6,046 nucleotides of DNA from Rhodospirillaceae bacterium. Lineage in GTDB: Bacteria > Pseudomonadota > Alphaproteobacteria > UBA828. The stretch is taken from the NCBI GenBank assembly GCA_028819955.1, contig JAPPKP010000396.1:1-6046 (forward strand). Direction: 5' to 3'. Positions 1,653 to 6,046 of this stretch are shown piece by piece. The notes beneath the pieces are model-generated. The model was not told where the DNA came from. It searched no databases and saw only the letters and a program-made list of their open reading frames with translations. Made by a program: the position numbers and the translations under genes. Positions within the stretch are counted from its first letter, which is position 1, and the number at the start of each line of letters is the position of its first letter.

Positions 1653-1756
1653 GAACCCGCCGCTACCCTCCGCGCTGTGCCCGCACGGGCACGAATTCTC
1701 AACGCCTTCATGTGGGGAATCCGTGAGCAACGGCGTCCAGCCCACGGTTCCCCAAC

Positions 1757-1856
1757 CTATCCTCAGCTTATCCGATCATCCTTGTCACAGGGCCGTCATA
1801 ACGGGGATAACGCTCTGACGACCGGCTCTGGAACGTGCCCTTCCACACTATCCTCG
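1757..1856. other. Cluster of weak DnaA-box-like sites with TATCC cores
   Basis: Four sites sharing a TATCC core fall within 100 bases: CTATCCTCA at 1757-1765 (7 of 9 bases of TTATCCACA), TTATCCGAT at 1768-1776 (6 of 9), TTATCCCCG on the minus strand at 1810-1802 (7 of 9), and CTATCCTCG at 1848-1856 (6 of 9). The first two are 11 bases apart, about one helical turn. None is a consensus box; low-affinity DnaA arrays are known from other origins, so the density and context matter more than any single match. Binding is inferred. Confidence 0.35.
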
Positions 1857-1873
1857 TTTTCCTACGACTGGTG

Positions 1874-1908
1874 AAAGACCCCGCTACGCTGGCTCTTCGC
1901 GGTTTTTT
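1874..1908 (+). terminator. Terminator-like imperfect hairpin with T run
   Basis: CCGC at 1881-1884 can pair with GCGG at 1899-1902, and AAAGA at 1874-1878 with the first five T of the run at 1903-1908 if two C are bulged. The loop is 14 bases. This resembles a weak intrinsic terminator on the plus strand, but no plus-strand gene is known to end here. It may end a short transcript from the origin region, or simply be an easily melted T tract. Confidence 0.22.
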
Positions 1909-1942
1909 CATCTTGCGCTTCTCTCCAACGTGACCCAATCGA

Positions 1943-1951
1943 TGATCCACG
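1943..1951 (+). other. DnaA box candidate, G-box type
   Basis: TGATCCACG differs at one position from TGATCCACA, which I recall as the G-type DnaA box of the Caulobacter origin, and at two positions from TTATCCACA. It is the best single DnaA-like site in the gap. It lies 129 bases before the hemE start codon. Confidence 0.45.
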
Positions 1952-1998
1952 CGTCATCTGGGATGAACATCAGAATCCCCTCCTCCGCGCCAACATCA

Positions 1999-2007
1999 TC
2001 ATCCACT
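1999..2007 (+). other. DnaA box candidate
   Basis: TCATCCACT matches 7 of 9 bases of TTATCCACA and keeps the ATCCAC core shared with the site at 1943-1951. It abuts the AT-rich palindrome at 2005-2019. A DnaA site next to an AT-rich unwinding region is a common origin layout; function is inferred. Confidence 0.33.
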
Positions 2008-2019
2008 CTTAATAAGAGT
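2005..2019. repeat. Perfect 6-bp inverted repeat in AT-rich stretch before hemE
   Basis: ACTCTT and AAGAGT are perfect inverted arms around AAT. The palindrome sits in the most AT-rich part of the gap (about 2005-2036) and 53 bases upstream of the hemE start. It could be an operator for a dimeric regulator of hemE or part of a DNA unwinding element. The sequence does not tell which. Confidence 0.4.
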
Positions 2020-2071
2020 CATTTAATGAAGATAGTCTGACGAAGCCGGGGACAAGGGCTGATCGGCAATC

Positions 2072-3124
2072 GTGGATACGAACAATAGACCGCTTCTCGC
2101 GGCGCTTCGGGGGGAGGTGCAGCACCCGCCGCCACTCTGGTTGATGCGCCAAGCAGGGCGCTACCTGCCTGAATACCGCGCGCTGCGGGCGAAGGCGGGA
2201 TCTTTCCTCGATCTTTGCTACGACCCCGCGCTCGCGGTCGAGGCCACGCTTCAACCCGTGCGCCGGTTCCCCCTCGACGGGATCATCCTGTTCTCGGACA
2301 TCCTGGTGGTGGCTCAAGCGCTTGGCGTCAAGCTCTGGTTCGAGGAAGGCGAGGGGCCGCGTCTGGAGCCGATTCTCGAGGGTGGGCCCCTTCCCGAGTT
2401 CGAGGCGGGACGCCAGCGGCACCACCTCGCGCCGGTCTACGAGGCGATGGAGCGGGTTGCGGCGTCAGCGCCGGCCGGGGCGACCGTTCTGGGTTTTGCA
2501 GGGGCGCCATGGACGCTCGCCACCTACATGGTCGGCGGCGGCCGAAGCCGGGACTTCGTCACGGTCAAGGGCTGGGCCTATCGCGATCCGGAGAGCTTCG
2601 GGCGGCTGATCGAAACATTGCGTCAGGCGGTGTCGGCGCACCTAGTCGCCCAACTCGACGCCGGCGCCGACGCAGTTCAGGTCTTCGACAGCTGGGCTGG
2701 AGCACTGCCAGAGAGCGAGCTCGGGCGTTGGTGCATCGAGCCTTTGAAAGAAATCGTGGCCGAGGTGAAGGCAGCGCACCCGGCAGCCCCGGTCATCGGC
2801 TACCCGCGCGGGGTGGGCGTGCTCTGCGAGCGCTTCGCTGCGGAGACCGGCGTAGACGCAGTCTCGATCGACAGCACTGTACCGCCGGCCTGGGCGGCGG
2901 CACACCTGCAACCGCACTGCACAGTGCAGGGCAACCTCGATCCCGTGGCGCTGGTGGCGGGCGGTGATGCGCTGCGGCGCTCGGCTAATGCCATTCTGGA
3001 AGCGCTCGGCGACGGCCCCTTCGTGTTCAATCTCGGCGAAGGCGTGCTTCCACGGACGCCCCCTGAGCACGTGGCGGAACTCGTTGACCTTGTAAAAGCG
3101 TGGCCGGACGGGATCGAGCGATGA
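2072..3124 (+). CDS. hemE: Uroporphyrinogen decarboxylase
   Basis: The 350-residue cytoplasmic enzyme removes the four acetate carboxyls of uroporphyrinogen III to give coproporphyrinogen III in haem synthesis. Length is normal. Diagnostic blocks are P-P-L-W-L-M-R-Q-A-G-R-Y-L-P-E-Y at 20-35 (Arg26 and Arg30 correspond to human Arg37 and Arg41), I-L-F-S-D-I-L at 72-78 (Asp76, equivalent of essential human Asp86), G-A-P-W-T-L-A-T-Y-M at 144-153 (Tyr152, human Tyr164) and F-D-S-W-A-G at 205-210 (Ser207, human Ser219). The late block normally written FNLGHG reads F-N-L-G-E-G at 319-324, so the usual His (human His339) is Glu323. The start is GTG, with AAGGG about 13 bases upstream; no in-frame ATG lies nearby upstream. 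The stop overlaps the hemH start (ATGA). It is the first gene rightward from the presumed origin. Confidence 0.96.
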   Translation: MDTNNRPLLAALRGEVQHPPPLWLMRQAGRYLPEYRALRAKAGSFLDLCYDPALAVEATLQPVRRFPLDGIILFSDILVVAQALGVKLWFEEGEGPRLEPILEGGPLPEFEAGRQRHHLAPVYEAMERVAASAPAGATVLGFAGAPWTLATYMVGGGRSRDFVTVKGWAYRDPESFGRLIETLRQAVSAHLVAQLDAGADAVQVFDSWAGALPESELGRWCIEPLKEIVAEVKAAHPAAPVIGYPRGVGVLCERFAAETGVDAVSIDSTVPPAWAAAHLQPHCTVQGNLDPVALVAGGDALRRSANAILEALGDGPFVFNLGEGVLPRTPPEHVAELVDLVKAWPDGIER

Positions 3125-4155
3125 GCCGCGTTGCGGTGGTTCTCATGAACCTCGGCGGCCCCGACTCGCTCGACGCCGTCGAGCCGTTCCTGCGCAATCT
3201 CTTCCGCGATCCGGCCATCATCGGAGCGCCAGGACCGGTGCGCCGGCTGCTGGCGCGGCTGATCGCAAAGCGGCGCGGCCCCGAGGCCCGCGAAATCTAT
3301 CGCTCGATCGGCGGACGCTCGCCCTTGCTCGAGGAAACCGAGGCGCAGGCAGCGGCCTTGAAGGCTGCTCTCGCCGACCTCGGTGAAGTCGAGGTGGTTG
3401 TCGCGATGCGCTACTGGCACCCGATGAGCGATGCTGCGGCGCGGCAGGTGGCCGCCTTTGGGCCAGAGAGGATTGTGCTTCTGCCCCTCTATCCGCAGTT
3501 CTCGACCACCACGGCGGCTTCGTCGCTGGCGGCTTGGCGCTCGGCGGCCGGGGCCGCCGGCATCGCTGCTCCCGCGCACGCCGTCTGCTGCTACCCGCGT
3601 GCGGACGGGCTGATCGGAGCCCACGCGGCGCTGATCGAGCCCCTGCTGGCGACGGCGGCTGAGGCAGGCCCACCTCGGCTGCTCTTCTCTGCCCACGGCC
3701 TGCCCAAGCGTGTGGTCGCGCGCGGCGATCCCTACCAGTGGCAAGTGGAGGAGACCGCACGCCAGATCGTCGCCCGCCTTGGCCGCGAGGACCTTGACTG
3801 GACGGTCTGCTACCAGAGCAAGGTCGGGCCGCTCGTTTGGCTGGAGCCTTCCACCGTCACGGAGCTCGACCGCGCCGGTCGCGACCGCGTGCCCGTGGTC
3901 GTCGTGCCCGTCGCCTTCGTCTCCGAGCACAGCGAGACCCTGGTGGAGCTAGACGTTACCTATCGAAAGCGTGCGGAGAATATGGGCATCCCCGCCTATC
4001 ACCGAGTTCCGGCCCTCGGCACGCATCCAACGTTCATCGCGGCGCTTGCCGATCTCGTGCGTCGCGCTCTGGATGGCGAGACCGGCGTCGACTCCGGCGA
4101 GGGCGGACGGCTCTGCCCCGTCGCCCATCGCGGCTGCCCACTGGCGGCAAGCTGA
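3121..4155 (+). CDS. hemH: Ferrochelatase
   Basis: The 344-residue protein inserts Fe2+ into protoporphyrin IX to form protohaem, usually at the inner face of the cytoplasmic membrane. It shows N-L-G-G-P-D at 10-15, S-I-G-G-R-S-P-L at 62-69, L-P-L-Y-P-Q-F-S at 121-128, S-A-H-G-L-P at 190-195 with catalytic-type His192, Y-Q-S-K-V-G-P at 231-237, and F-V-S-E-H-S-E-T-L-V-E-L-D at 266-278 with the metal-handling Glu272. The ATG at 3121 overlaps the hemE stop; an in-frame start 21 bases earlier would lie within hemE and lacks family support. The C terminus carries Cys332 and Cys339 (C-X6-C) but lacks the third nearby Cys of the [2Fe-2S] ferrochelatases of Mycobacterium and Caulobacter. Further cysteines are at 156, 157 and 230. 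The stop overlaps hemJ by one base. Confidence 0.96.
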   Translation: MSRVAVVLMNLGGPDSLDAVEPFLRNLFRDPAIIGAPGPVRRLLARLIAKRRGPEAREIYRSIGGRSPLLEETEAQAAALKAALADLGEVEVVVAMRYWHPMSDAAARQVAAFGPERIVLLPLYPQFSTTTAASSLAAWRSAAGAAGIAAPAHAVCCYPRADGLIGAHAALIEPLLATAAEAGPPRLLFSAHGLPKRVVARGDPYQWQVEETARQIVARLGREDLDWTVCYQSKVGPLVWLEPSTVTELDRAGRDRVPVVVVPVAFVSEHSETLVELDVTYRKRAENMGIPAYHRVPALGTHPTFIAALADLVRRALDGETGVDSGEGGRLCPVAHRGCPLAAS

Positions 4156-4598
4156 TGGCTGACGATCTCTACGCCTGGCTCAGAGCGCTGCACGTGATCG
4201 CTGTGATCGCCTGGATGGCTGGGATGCTCTACCTGCCTCGGCTCTACGTCTACCACGCCGATGCCGAGCCGGGCTCCGAGCTCTCGGAAACCCTCAAGGT
4301 CATGGAGCGGCGCCTGCTCCGGATCATCATCAACCCGGCCATGGTGGCGAGCTTCGGCTTCGGCGGGGCCCTGCTGGCCCGGCCCGGCGCGGTCGACTGG
4401 TCCGGCGACATCTGGATCTACGTCAAGCTCGCCCTTGTGTTGCTGCTCGCGACCTTCCACGGGCTGCTCGCGCGCTGGCGGCGCGACTTCGCCGCCGACC
4501 GCAACCGTCGCGGCGCCCGCTTCTACCGCAGGGTGAACGAGGTGCCGACGCTCGCCATGATCGCTATTGTCATCATGGTCATCGTCAGGCCGTTCTGA
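4155..4598 (+). CDS. hemJ: Protoporphyrinogen IX oxidase, HemJ type (membrane)
   Basis: The 147-residue protein is a HemJ (UPF0093) integral membrane enzyme. The family oxidises protoporphyrinogen IX to protoporphyrin IX, the step just before ferrochelatase, and is the usual form in alphaproteobacteria lacking HemG or HemY. Four hydrophobic stretches are visible at about 11-32, 58-76, 85-105 and 132-145. Family blocks are W-L-R-A-L-H-V-I-A-V-I-A-W-M-A-G at 8-23 (His13 corresponds to the haem-ligand His of studied HemJ proteins), L-P-R-L-Y-V-Y-H at 27-34, I-N-P-A-M at 59-63, Y-V-K-L at 89-92 (conserved Lys91) and R-V-N-E-V-P-T at 126-132. The open frame extends far upstream, but only the part from this ATG resembles the family, and the TGATG overlap with hemH indicates coupled translation. 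HemJ and HemH made together would favour passing the reactive porphyrin on directly; that is inference. Confidence 0.95.
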   Translation: MADDLYAWLRALHVIAVIAWMAGMLYLPRLYVYHADAEPGSELSETLKVMERRLLRIIINPAMVASFGFGGALLARPGAVDWSGDIWIYVKLALVLLLATFHGLLARWRRDFAADRNRRGARFYRRVNEVPTLAMIAIVIMVIVRPF

Positions 4599-4619
4599 TC
4601 GGAGTTGGGAGCGAGAGGC

Positions 4620-5738
4620 GTGACTGAACGAGCCGGGGTCCTCTCCAGCACCGCGATCGCGGCGCTGATCGAGCGCGGCGAAGTCTCTGCGGACGAGCCC
4701 ATCGGCACGGCTCAGATTCAGCCGGCGAGCCTCGACCTAAGGCTCGGACCCAAGGCTTACCGGGTGCGCGCGAGCTTCCTGCCGGGCCGCGAGAGCGTGC
4801 GCGCGAAGATCGTGCGCCTCGGCATGCACGAGATCGACCTCGCGCCCGGCGCGGTATTGGAGCGTGGCTGCGTCTACATCGTGCCCCTGATGGAACGCCT
4901 CGCGCTTGCGCCCGATGTCGCGGCCCACGCCAACCCCAAGAGCTCCACCGGGCGGCTCGACATCTTCACCCGGCTGATCGCCGACGAGGCGCACGAGTTC
5001 GACCGGGTGCAGGCCGGCTACCGGGGCCCGCTCTACGCCGAGGTCTCGCCCCGCACCTTCAGCATCGTGGTGCGCGCCGGAAGCCGGCTCAACCAGATCC
5101 GCTTCAAGCGGGGCGACCCCGGCTATTCCGAAGGCGCGTTGGAGCGTCTGCATGCCGAGCGCCGCCTGATCGAAGGCGAGGTCGCGCGCGGTGGCTTCGC
5201 CGGCGGCCTGCCGCTCTCCGTCGATCTCGCCGGCACCGGCACGGGCCTCGTCGGCTGGAAGGCGAAGCGCCATGCCGACCTGGTCGATATCGACGTGGTG
5301 GACCGCTACGAGCCCGGCGATTTTTGGGAGCCGATCGCGCGGCCTTCCGGCGGCGGCGTGATCCTGAACCCGGACGATTTCTACATCCTGGCCTCGAAGG
5401 AATCCGTACGCATCCCGCCGGACCACGCCGCCGAGATGGTGGCCTATGACACCCTGGTCGGCGAGTTCCGGGCGCACTACGCAGGCTTCTTCGATCCCGG
5501 CTTCGGGCATGACGAAGCGGGCGGCGGCGGCACGCGCGCGGTGCTGGAGGTGCGCTCCCACGACGTGCCCTTCGTGATCGAGGACGGCCAGACCATCGGT
5601 CGCCTCTTGTTCGAGCCGCTGACAGAACGCCCCGCCGAGCTCTACGGCCACGGCATCGGCTCCTCCTACCAGCGCCAGGGGCTCGCGCTCGCCAAGCAGT
5701 TCAAGCGGCCTCTGTCCGATGCCGGCGTGGCGCCATGA
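4620..5738 (+). CDS. dcd: dCTP deaminase, long alphaproteobacterial two-domain form
   Basis: The 372-residue protein matches the long 2'-deoxycytidine 5'-triphosphate deaminase family of alphaproteobacteria. The reaction converts dCTP to dUTP and ammonia, feeding dTMP synthesis. Ordinary Dcd has about 190 residues; this looks like two Dcd/dUTPase-like halves. The first half has Q-P-A-S-L-D-L-R-L-G at 34-43, K-S-S-T-G-R at 107-112 (the SSxxR of the active site) and a strand with Glu141 after A-G-Y-R-G, probably the catalytic Glu. The second half has the related F-D-P-G-F-G at 291-296, Glu310, and I-E-D-G-Q-T-I-G-R-L-L-F-E at 320-332, but no SSxxR. The C-terminal S-S-Y-Q-R-Q-G (348-354) resembles the Dcd tail. 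GTG at 4620 is preferred because GGGAG lies 7 bases upstream; a TTG at 4605 has GGAG directly against it. It follows hemJ by 21 bases and is probably cotranscribed. Confidence 0.88.
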   Translation: MTERAGVLSSTAIAALIERGEVSADEPIGTAQIQPASLDLRLGPKAYRVRASFLPGRESVRAKIVRLGMHEIDLAPGAVLERGCVYIVPLMERLALAPDVAAHANPKSSTGRLDIFTRLIADEAHEFDRVQAGYRGPLYAEVSPRTFSIVVRAGSRLNQIRFKRGDPGYSEGALERLHAERRLIEGEVARGGFAGGLPLSVDLAGTGTGLVGWKAKRHADLVDIDVVDRYEPGDFWEPIARPSGGGVILNPDDFYILASKESVRIPPDHAAEMVAYDTLVGEFRAHYAGFFDPGFGHDEAGGGGTRAVLEVRSHDVPFVIEDGQTIGRLLFEPLTERPAELYGHGIGSSYQRQGLALAKQFKRPLSDAGVAP

Positions 5739-5952: not shown

Positions 5953-6046
5953 ATGCATCTGCAAGAACTCAAGACCCAGACCCCGACTCAGCTGATCGAC
6001 TACGCCGAAGAGCTCGAGATCGAGAACGCGAACTCGATGCGCCGGC
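5953..6046 (+). CDS. rho: Transcription termination factor Rho, N-terminal part (cut by window edge)
   Basis: The first 31 codons are present; the gene runs off the right edge. Rho is the hexameric RNA-dependent ATPase/helicase that ends transcription at C-rich sites. The visible start, M-H-L-Q-E-L-K-T-Q-T-P then L-I-D-Y-A-E-E-L-E-I-E-N-A, matches the family's helical N-terminal domain (E. coli starts MNLTELKNTPVSEL). The RNA-binding and ATPase domains lie outside. No strong ribosome-binding sequence precedes the ATG (best is a weak GGCAGCG), which fits a controlled leader. Position after hemE–hemH–hemJ matches the alphaproteobacterial origin-flanking order. Because the haem operon has no clear terminator, some read-through into rho is likely besides its own promoter. 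Confidence 0.93.
   Translation, partial: MHLQELKTQTPTQLIDYAEELEIENANSMRR

Follow-up and report, generated by a model that had tools for sequence, protein, structure and literature searches.

The window, the whole stretch of 6,046 nt from a Rhodospirillaceae bacterium that was analysed here, carries two sets of genes around one long intergenic gap (Table 1). The first-pass annotation had given the order as aroE–maf–DUF299, gap, hemE–hemH–hemJ–rho; this order was recovered except that it omitted dcd, which stands between hemJ and rho. Both flanks read outward from the gap, with ppsR on the minus strand and hemE on the plus strand, and the gap is indeed unusually long, being the longest intergenic stretch of the window (maf–ppsR, 71 bp; dcd–rho, about 214 bp). 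It is 44% AT, against 62–74% GC in the flanking 100-bp windows. Because the alignment of eight orthologous gaps contains indels, several of them of a single base, and shows no common reading frame by eye, the gap appears to be non-coding, in agreement with the earlier description. An RNA feature in the gap was rejected on the basis of no Rfam match at gathering scores and a weak consensus fold for the 144 alignment columns nearest hemE (8 pairs, −6.34 kcal/mol).

Table 1. Genes and sequence features of the window, in order of position
Feature	Position	Strand	Remarks
aroE	cut by window start	minus	
maf-like gene	133–774	minus	NF002690, 193.7 bits, under its cut-off of 269
ppsR (DUF299/COG1806)	846–1652	minus	left boundary gene; NF003742, 329.6 bits, cut-off 225
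Putative oriC gap, ppsR/hemE	1653–2071	none	419 bp, 56% GC
DnaA-box-like TTCCCCACA	1711–1719	minus	2 mismatches; includes W-box TCCCCA at 1713–1718
W-box TCCCCA	1749–1754	plus	
DnaA-box-like CTATCCTCA	1757–1765	plus	within block CAGCTTATCCCCAGCTTATC of the close-relative consensus
DnaA-box-like TTATCCCCG	1802–1810	minus	consensus block GGGGATAACG
TGATCCACG, G-box-like	1943–1951	plus	one mismatch from Caulobacter G-box TGATCCACA (consensus from PMC4285127)
AATCCCC	1974–1980	plus	adjoins the melting element; AATCCC in 7/8 aligned rows, by eye
AACATCATCATCC, possible drifted DnaA-trio stretch	1992–2004	plus	correspondence to sister CTA repeats by eye
Probable DNA unwinding element	1995–2034	none	least stable 40 bp of the window
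DnaA-box-like TCATCCACT	1999–2007	plus	2 mismatches
Inverted repeat ACTCTTA-A-TAAGAGT	2005–2019	none	within the unwinding element; by eye
TTAA-N7-TTAA (CtrA-type) box	2012–2026	none	1 mismatch; GAGTC (GANTC) site at 2016 inside
hemE	2072–3124	plus	right boundary gene; GTG start; TIGR01464, 377.2 bits
hemH	3121–4155	plus	TIGR00109, 265.7 bits
hemJ	4155–4598	plus	TIGR00701, 173.6 bits
dcd (long dCTP deaminase)	4605–5738	plus	start uncertain; NF005734, 548.5 bits
rho, 5' end	5953–6046	plus	start about 5953 by eye; orthologous G001 ORF is Rho (TIGR00767, 698.3 bits)

Conservation of the gap among relatives

All data beyond the 6-kb window come from relatives and not from the source genome. One HemE scan of genome contigs gave 28 loci, namely those of seven close MAGs (loci L001–L007, genomes G001–G007; HemE 76–85% identical) and 21 from more distant organisms, among them Magnetospirillum, Reyranella, Vineibacter, Neomegalonema and Hyphomicrobiales. 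Each of the 28 has ppsR and hemE in divergent orientation, with gaps of 317–518 bp by inferred starts; since the loci were retrieved via hemE, this synteny shows retention of the pair among them and not the rate at which it is lost. Being orthologous, the gaps do not count as independent samples. Of the 21 genomes that the collection contains for the family of G001, 15 were matched by a query of 801 bp taken from around the gap; complete gaps, 400–490 bp long, were obtained from eight further members. Beyond rho, G001 continues with an ornithine-cyclodeaminase-like gene, parB, a parA-like gene, gidB, gidA and mnmE. A gap between divergent hemE and COG1806 (DUF299/ppsR) thus reproduces the origin neighbourhood of Caulobacter and Rickettsia, as had been proposed. 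dcd follows hemJ in the window and in L001–L007, and no dcd match was found in L008–L028, several of which are short.

An AT-rich stretch had been reported in the gap, and it is present: GC falls to 0.47 at 2000–2099, and the 40-bp stability minimum of the 6,046-nt window is at 1995–2034. For five of the seven close relatives, the 40-bp minimum of the complete 12–17 kb locus falls 66–75 bp before hemE. The corresponding minimum of L003 and L004 lies 6.1–6.5 kb to the right of the hemE start, past rho (the end of rho being judged from G001). When windows of 80 bp are used, the window has its stability minimum at the gap, but only four of the seven close loci do. Alignment of the window with the seven close gaps yields the consensus blocks CAGCTTATCCCCAGCTTATC, GGGGATAACG and CCTTCCAC, together with a long hemE-proximal conserved block that contains TTTAATGAAGATAGTCTGA and holds the probable unwinding element. 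The final 100 bp of the gap are 69–84% identical to the window in the seven close relatives, and four-fold sites are 47–61% (hemE) and 51–66% (ppsR) identical. The remaining gap exceeds both four-fold figures only in L001 (77%) and L003 (76%). In the other five relatives it is 51–56% identical, close to or below the four-fold sites, so that most of the left gap is not conserved there past neutral sites.

DnaA-box-like sites and DnaA-trios

The gap had been said to contain DnaA-like sites, which holds for weak sites only. Five sites with up to two mismatches to TTATCCACA were counted in the window gap against 0.9 expected, a number reached in 0 of 200 dinucleotide shuffles, but none lies within one mismatch. 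The pattern TTWTNCACA with up to one mismatch has zero sites in the whole window, where 1.28 are expected. Sites of the two-mismatch class are in excess over shuffles (p ≤ 0.05) in 23 of 29 gaps, the window included, and a significant excess is absent in L006, L015, L016, L018, L022 and L027. Motif counts in these gap tests cover both strands, and palindromes (TTAA-N7-TTAA, GANTC) are thus counted twice. A sixth site, GTATCCACG (2068–2076, minus strand), overlaps the hemE start codon and, by eye, is retained in L001 and absent from the other six close relatives. A G-box at one mismatch was found in none of the seven close gaps. An IHF site was also sought in the window gap and dismissed, as WATCAN5WTR had no match.

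Site density was scanned in 420-bp segments along the window and nine contigs of 20–395 kb (for G006, the first 20 of 23.5 kb). The densest segment overlaps the gap in nine of the ten sequences, and G003 ties at 3/3. The counts at the gap and at the highest peak elsewhere are 6/1 in the window, 6/4 in G001, 4/3 in G002, 5/3 in G004, 4/3 in G005, 3/2 in G006, 5/3 in G007, 7/6 in G008 and 6/5 in G009, so the margin is a single site in G002, G005, G006, G008 and G009. No such peak was detected at dnaA on the two dnaA contigs G001:C100 and G008:C11.

A DnaA-trio was called where a box with at most two mismatches lies within 16 bp of at least three trios, the rule taken from PMC8287927. Among the eight clade gaps it selects the window alone, away from the unwinding element, where a lone run of four NTN follows CTATCCTCA at 1757. 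This run was reached in 6 of 200 simulations, and we rejected it as a formal trio because it is distant from the unwinding element and none of the seven close relatives has it. Beside the unwinding element itself, no trio run was found in the window or in L001–L007. In four of the eight other family members, the corresponding place holds four or five CTA repeats within 24 nt (reached in 0 of 200 simulations) and then an AT-rich palindrome, for example ATTCTTATAAGAAT; the remaining four have one to three CTA repeats. Judged by eye, AACATCATCATCC followed by ACTCTTAATAAGAGT in the window may possibly be a drifted trio with the same palindromic element as in these sister genomes. The ppsR–hemE gaps of L014 (4097–4534), L089, L090, L091 and L092 carry such CTA-repeat runs of four or five in 24 nt before an AT-rich stretch, and are good candidates for a study of the basal unwinding system in alphaproteobacteria.

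Cell-cycle motifs, segregation sites and strand asymmetry

Within the hemE-proximal block, the CtrA-type box is exact in L001–L003, has one mismatch in the window, L004, L005 and L007, and is missing from L006. The exact TTAA-N7-TTAA occurs once on the one contig counted from each of G001, G002 and G003 (302, 103 and 35 kb). It was also seen in the distant, AT-richer gaps L016, L017, L019 and L022, and no exact copy was found in the Magnetospirillum gaps. CtrA itself was not found in G001–G007, where the best NF045991 scores are 117–170 bits against a cut-off of 350 (these are MAGs of unstated completeness), nor in G010 (168 bits, same cut-off). The Magnetospirillum genomes G008 and G009 score 396.5 and 411.8 bits. 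The highest CtrA-model match among the close genomes, in G005, was discarded as a CtrA: it shares 36% identity with the CtrA of Magnetospirillum, and its best-scoring model is that of a heavy-metal-regulator subfamily, under the cut-off of that model.

GcrA exceeds its cut-off of 26.9 in all seven close genomes (100–110 bits); in controls, this model also matches Caulobacter and, unexpectedly, Sulfolobus. A RAMA domain was over cut-off in none of the seven, with one weak match in G004. Ordinary CcrM was not found in the close genomes, where the query reaches at most 63 bits, against 605 in G009 and 503 in G010. The two Magnetospirillum genomes show the reverse, with CtrA and CcrM present and GcrA missing or under cut-off. 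Although the motif is exact in L001–L003, CtrA control of 2012–2026 was set aside as a present mechanism, CtrA having been found in none of the close MAGs. Control by GANTC methylation was likewise rejected, the window gap having 3 sites against 2.6 expected (two-strand counts halved; p 0.5) and CcrM not being found. According to the review PMC4468827, CtrA sites are unseen in origins outside Caulobacter, except possibly in Rickettsia prowazekii; our TTAA-N7-TTAA matches, as motif matches alone, do not contradict it.

A more speculative reading, which we consider rather unlikely, is that the origin of this clade works without CtrA and ordinary CcrM, keeps GcrA, carries a CtrA-type box fused to the unwinding element and has a trio that drifted from CTA to ATC. 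If this were true, the box would be a relic, or would serve as a site for another regulator of the OmpR family or for DnaA itself, the control circuit having been rewired while the site was kept.

The position relative to parAB/parS and gidA–gidB, named as a check when the origin was first proposed, was examined in the relatives. Six of ten genomes have an exact parS, GTTTCACGTGAAAC, on the hemE side and 7.8–12.6 kb away from the start of hemE: four close relatives (G001, G003, G004, G007), where it lies about 8–9 kb from the gap, and both Magnetospirillum genomes. All six have a ParB match about 1.5 kb from parS, and in G001 gidB and gidA follow past parB. No exact parS was found on the hemE contig of G002, G006 or G010, and G005 has it only on other contigs. 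The hemE contig ends less than 5 kb from hemE in G002 and G005; that of G006 ends about 8 kb past hemE, with no exact parS and no ParB over cut-off found. parS of G010 is on a different contig from hemE. Additional parS-like copies occur on other contigs in G004 and G005; the reversed pattern that served as a control has matches in G004 and G010 too. In all ten genomes dnaA is on a separate contig from hemE, which excludes only a close neighbourhood, since many contigs are short. In the closed genomes treated by PMC8116508, parAB lies near ori in nearly all of the alphaproteobacteria studied, Rhodospirillales being among the exceptions; the same source describes dnaA as not conserved near ori in Rhodospirillales.

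GC skew, another of the suggested checks, gave a divided answer: in each of the two Magnetospirillum genomes a break or minimum falls less than 5 kb from the gap, but the contigs of the closest relatives have no significant break at it. In G008 (M. fulvum), the gap is 1.2 kb away from the best strand-corrected third-position keto break (p 0.003 and 0.002, the lowest values attainable with 300 and 500 permutations), with t 5.43 at the gap versus t 0.16 at dnaA; the TA3 break alone is 32 kb from the gap. G009 has its cumulative GC-skew minimum 4.4 kb away, on a 352-kb contig, and its strand-corrected keto break 71 kb from the gap. Plain GC skew has no sign change at the gap in G001, G003 and G004, and the cumulative minimum of G001 is 104 kb from it. 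Strand-corrected breaks were not significant in the single close contigs of G001, G003, G004 and G006; G001 gives t 1.05 at the gap against t 1.38 at dnaA, neither contig being significant. When the seven close genomes, whose genes are partly orthologous, were pooled, TA3 differed across the gap (one-sided p 0.007, 0.013 and 0.005 for 30, 50 and 100 kb) and GC3 was not significant (p 0.30, 0.21 and 0.59). The KOPS motif used is the E. coli form. Its forward/reverse counts in the close relatives are 13/37 on the ppsR side, as expected, and 26/23 on the hemE side; those of G009 are 12/26 and 15/16, and those of G008 are 23/32 and 26/5. Strand asymmetry is supportive of an origin in Magnetospirillum.

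Probable origin and comparison with known origins

We consider it very probable that 1653–2071 is a chromosome origin of the hemE/COG1806 type, as in Caulobacter and Rickettsia. The assignment, which the first-pass annotation had made as a likely one, is based on the agreement of synteny, the DnaA-like site peak, the stability minimum and the conserved block, and on parS/parB nearby, dnaA elsewhere and the M. fulvum break. DnaA-ATP would bind the cluster of weak sites (1711–2007) cooperatively, and a DnaA filament would extend to the hemE-proximal end through the box-and-trio-like segment (1974–2004). The unstable element would then melt, and helicase would be loaded for two forks. ParB at parS, which we infer to lie near the gap in the window's own genome too, would then separate the new origins.

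The gap might instead be only the two-way promoter region of ppsR and hemE, with regulatory conserved blocks and the origin elsewhere. The two genes do start divergently from it, and its most conserved part adjoins hemE, the expected place of a promoter or leader. We nevertheless hold this to be improbable: the densest DnaA-like sites fall at the gap in nearly all sequences scanned, parS and parB are nearby in most of the genomes, the skew breaks at the gap in G008, CTA-repeat runs stand in the gap of half of the other family members, and a promoter scan found 0 sigma-70-like sites in 1600–2100, where 0.3 are expected. The two functions can coexist, by analogy with Caulobacter, where transcription of hemE is described as important for replication (PMC8959179).

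An origin that adjoins dnaA is a common arrangement outside alphaproteobacteria. For the present lineage, we give this arrangement hardly any credence: the strand statistic of G001 is not lower at dnaA than at the gap on its two non-significant contigs, whereas neither dnaA contig scanned has a DnaA-box peak at dnaA and G008 has its strong statistic at the gap. With the hemE-side gap as the probable origin, an origin is now placed in an alphaproteobacterial lineage represented here by fragmented MAGs alone, and this would allow replication-rate estimates from read depth and correct assembly orientation. This lineage may also offer a natural test of which components of the Caulobacter origin circuit can be done without. 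For specialists, the point to note is that it keeps a CtrA-type box while no CtrA was found in it.

CTA repeats in half of the other family members resemble the DnaA-box and DnaA-trio arrangement of the B. subtilis-type basal unwinding system, unlike the window and L001–L007, which are without a trio run beside the unwinding element. Rickettsia origins are described as 383–396 bp long and 82–83% AT, between hemE and COG1806, with two or more CtrA boxes reported (PMC1914354); the window shares their flanks, but not their base composition. The Caulobacter crescentus origin Cori has five full CtrA boxes (PMC8959179) and CtrA, whereas the window has one CtrA-type box with one mismatch and CtrA was not found in the seven MAGs. 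A further difference is that the window gap has no match to the IHF consensus. The Caulobacter origin is given as 404 bp and 43.56% AT, also between hemE and COG1806 (PMC1914354), and the window gap resembles it in flanks, size, AT content and AT-rich element. Cori's DnaA sites include the G-box TGATCCACA and the W-box TCCCCA (PMC4285127, PMC4468827), and the weak sites of the window likewise include TCCCCA and a one-mismatch G-box. The hemE/COG1806 type of origin is thus already known, and the window adds another example of it.
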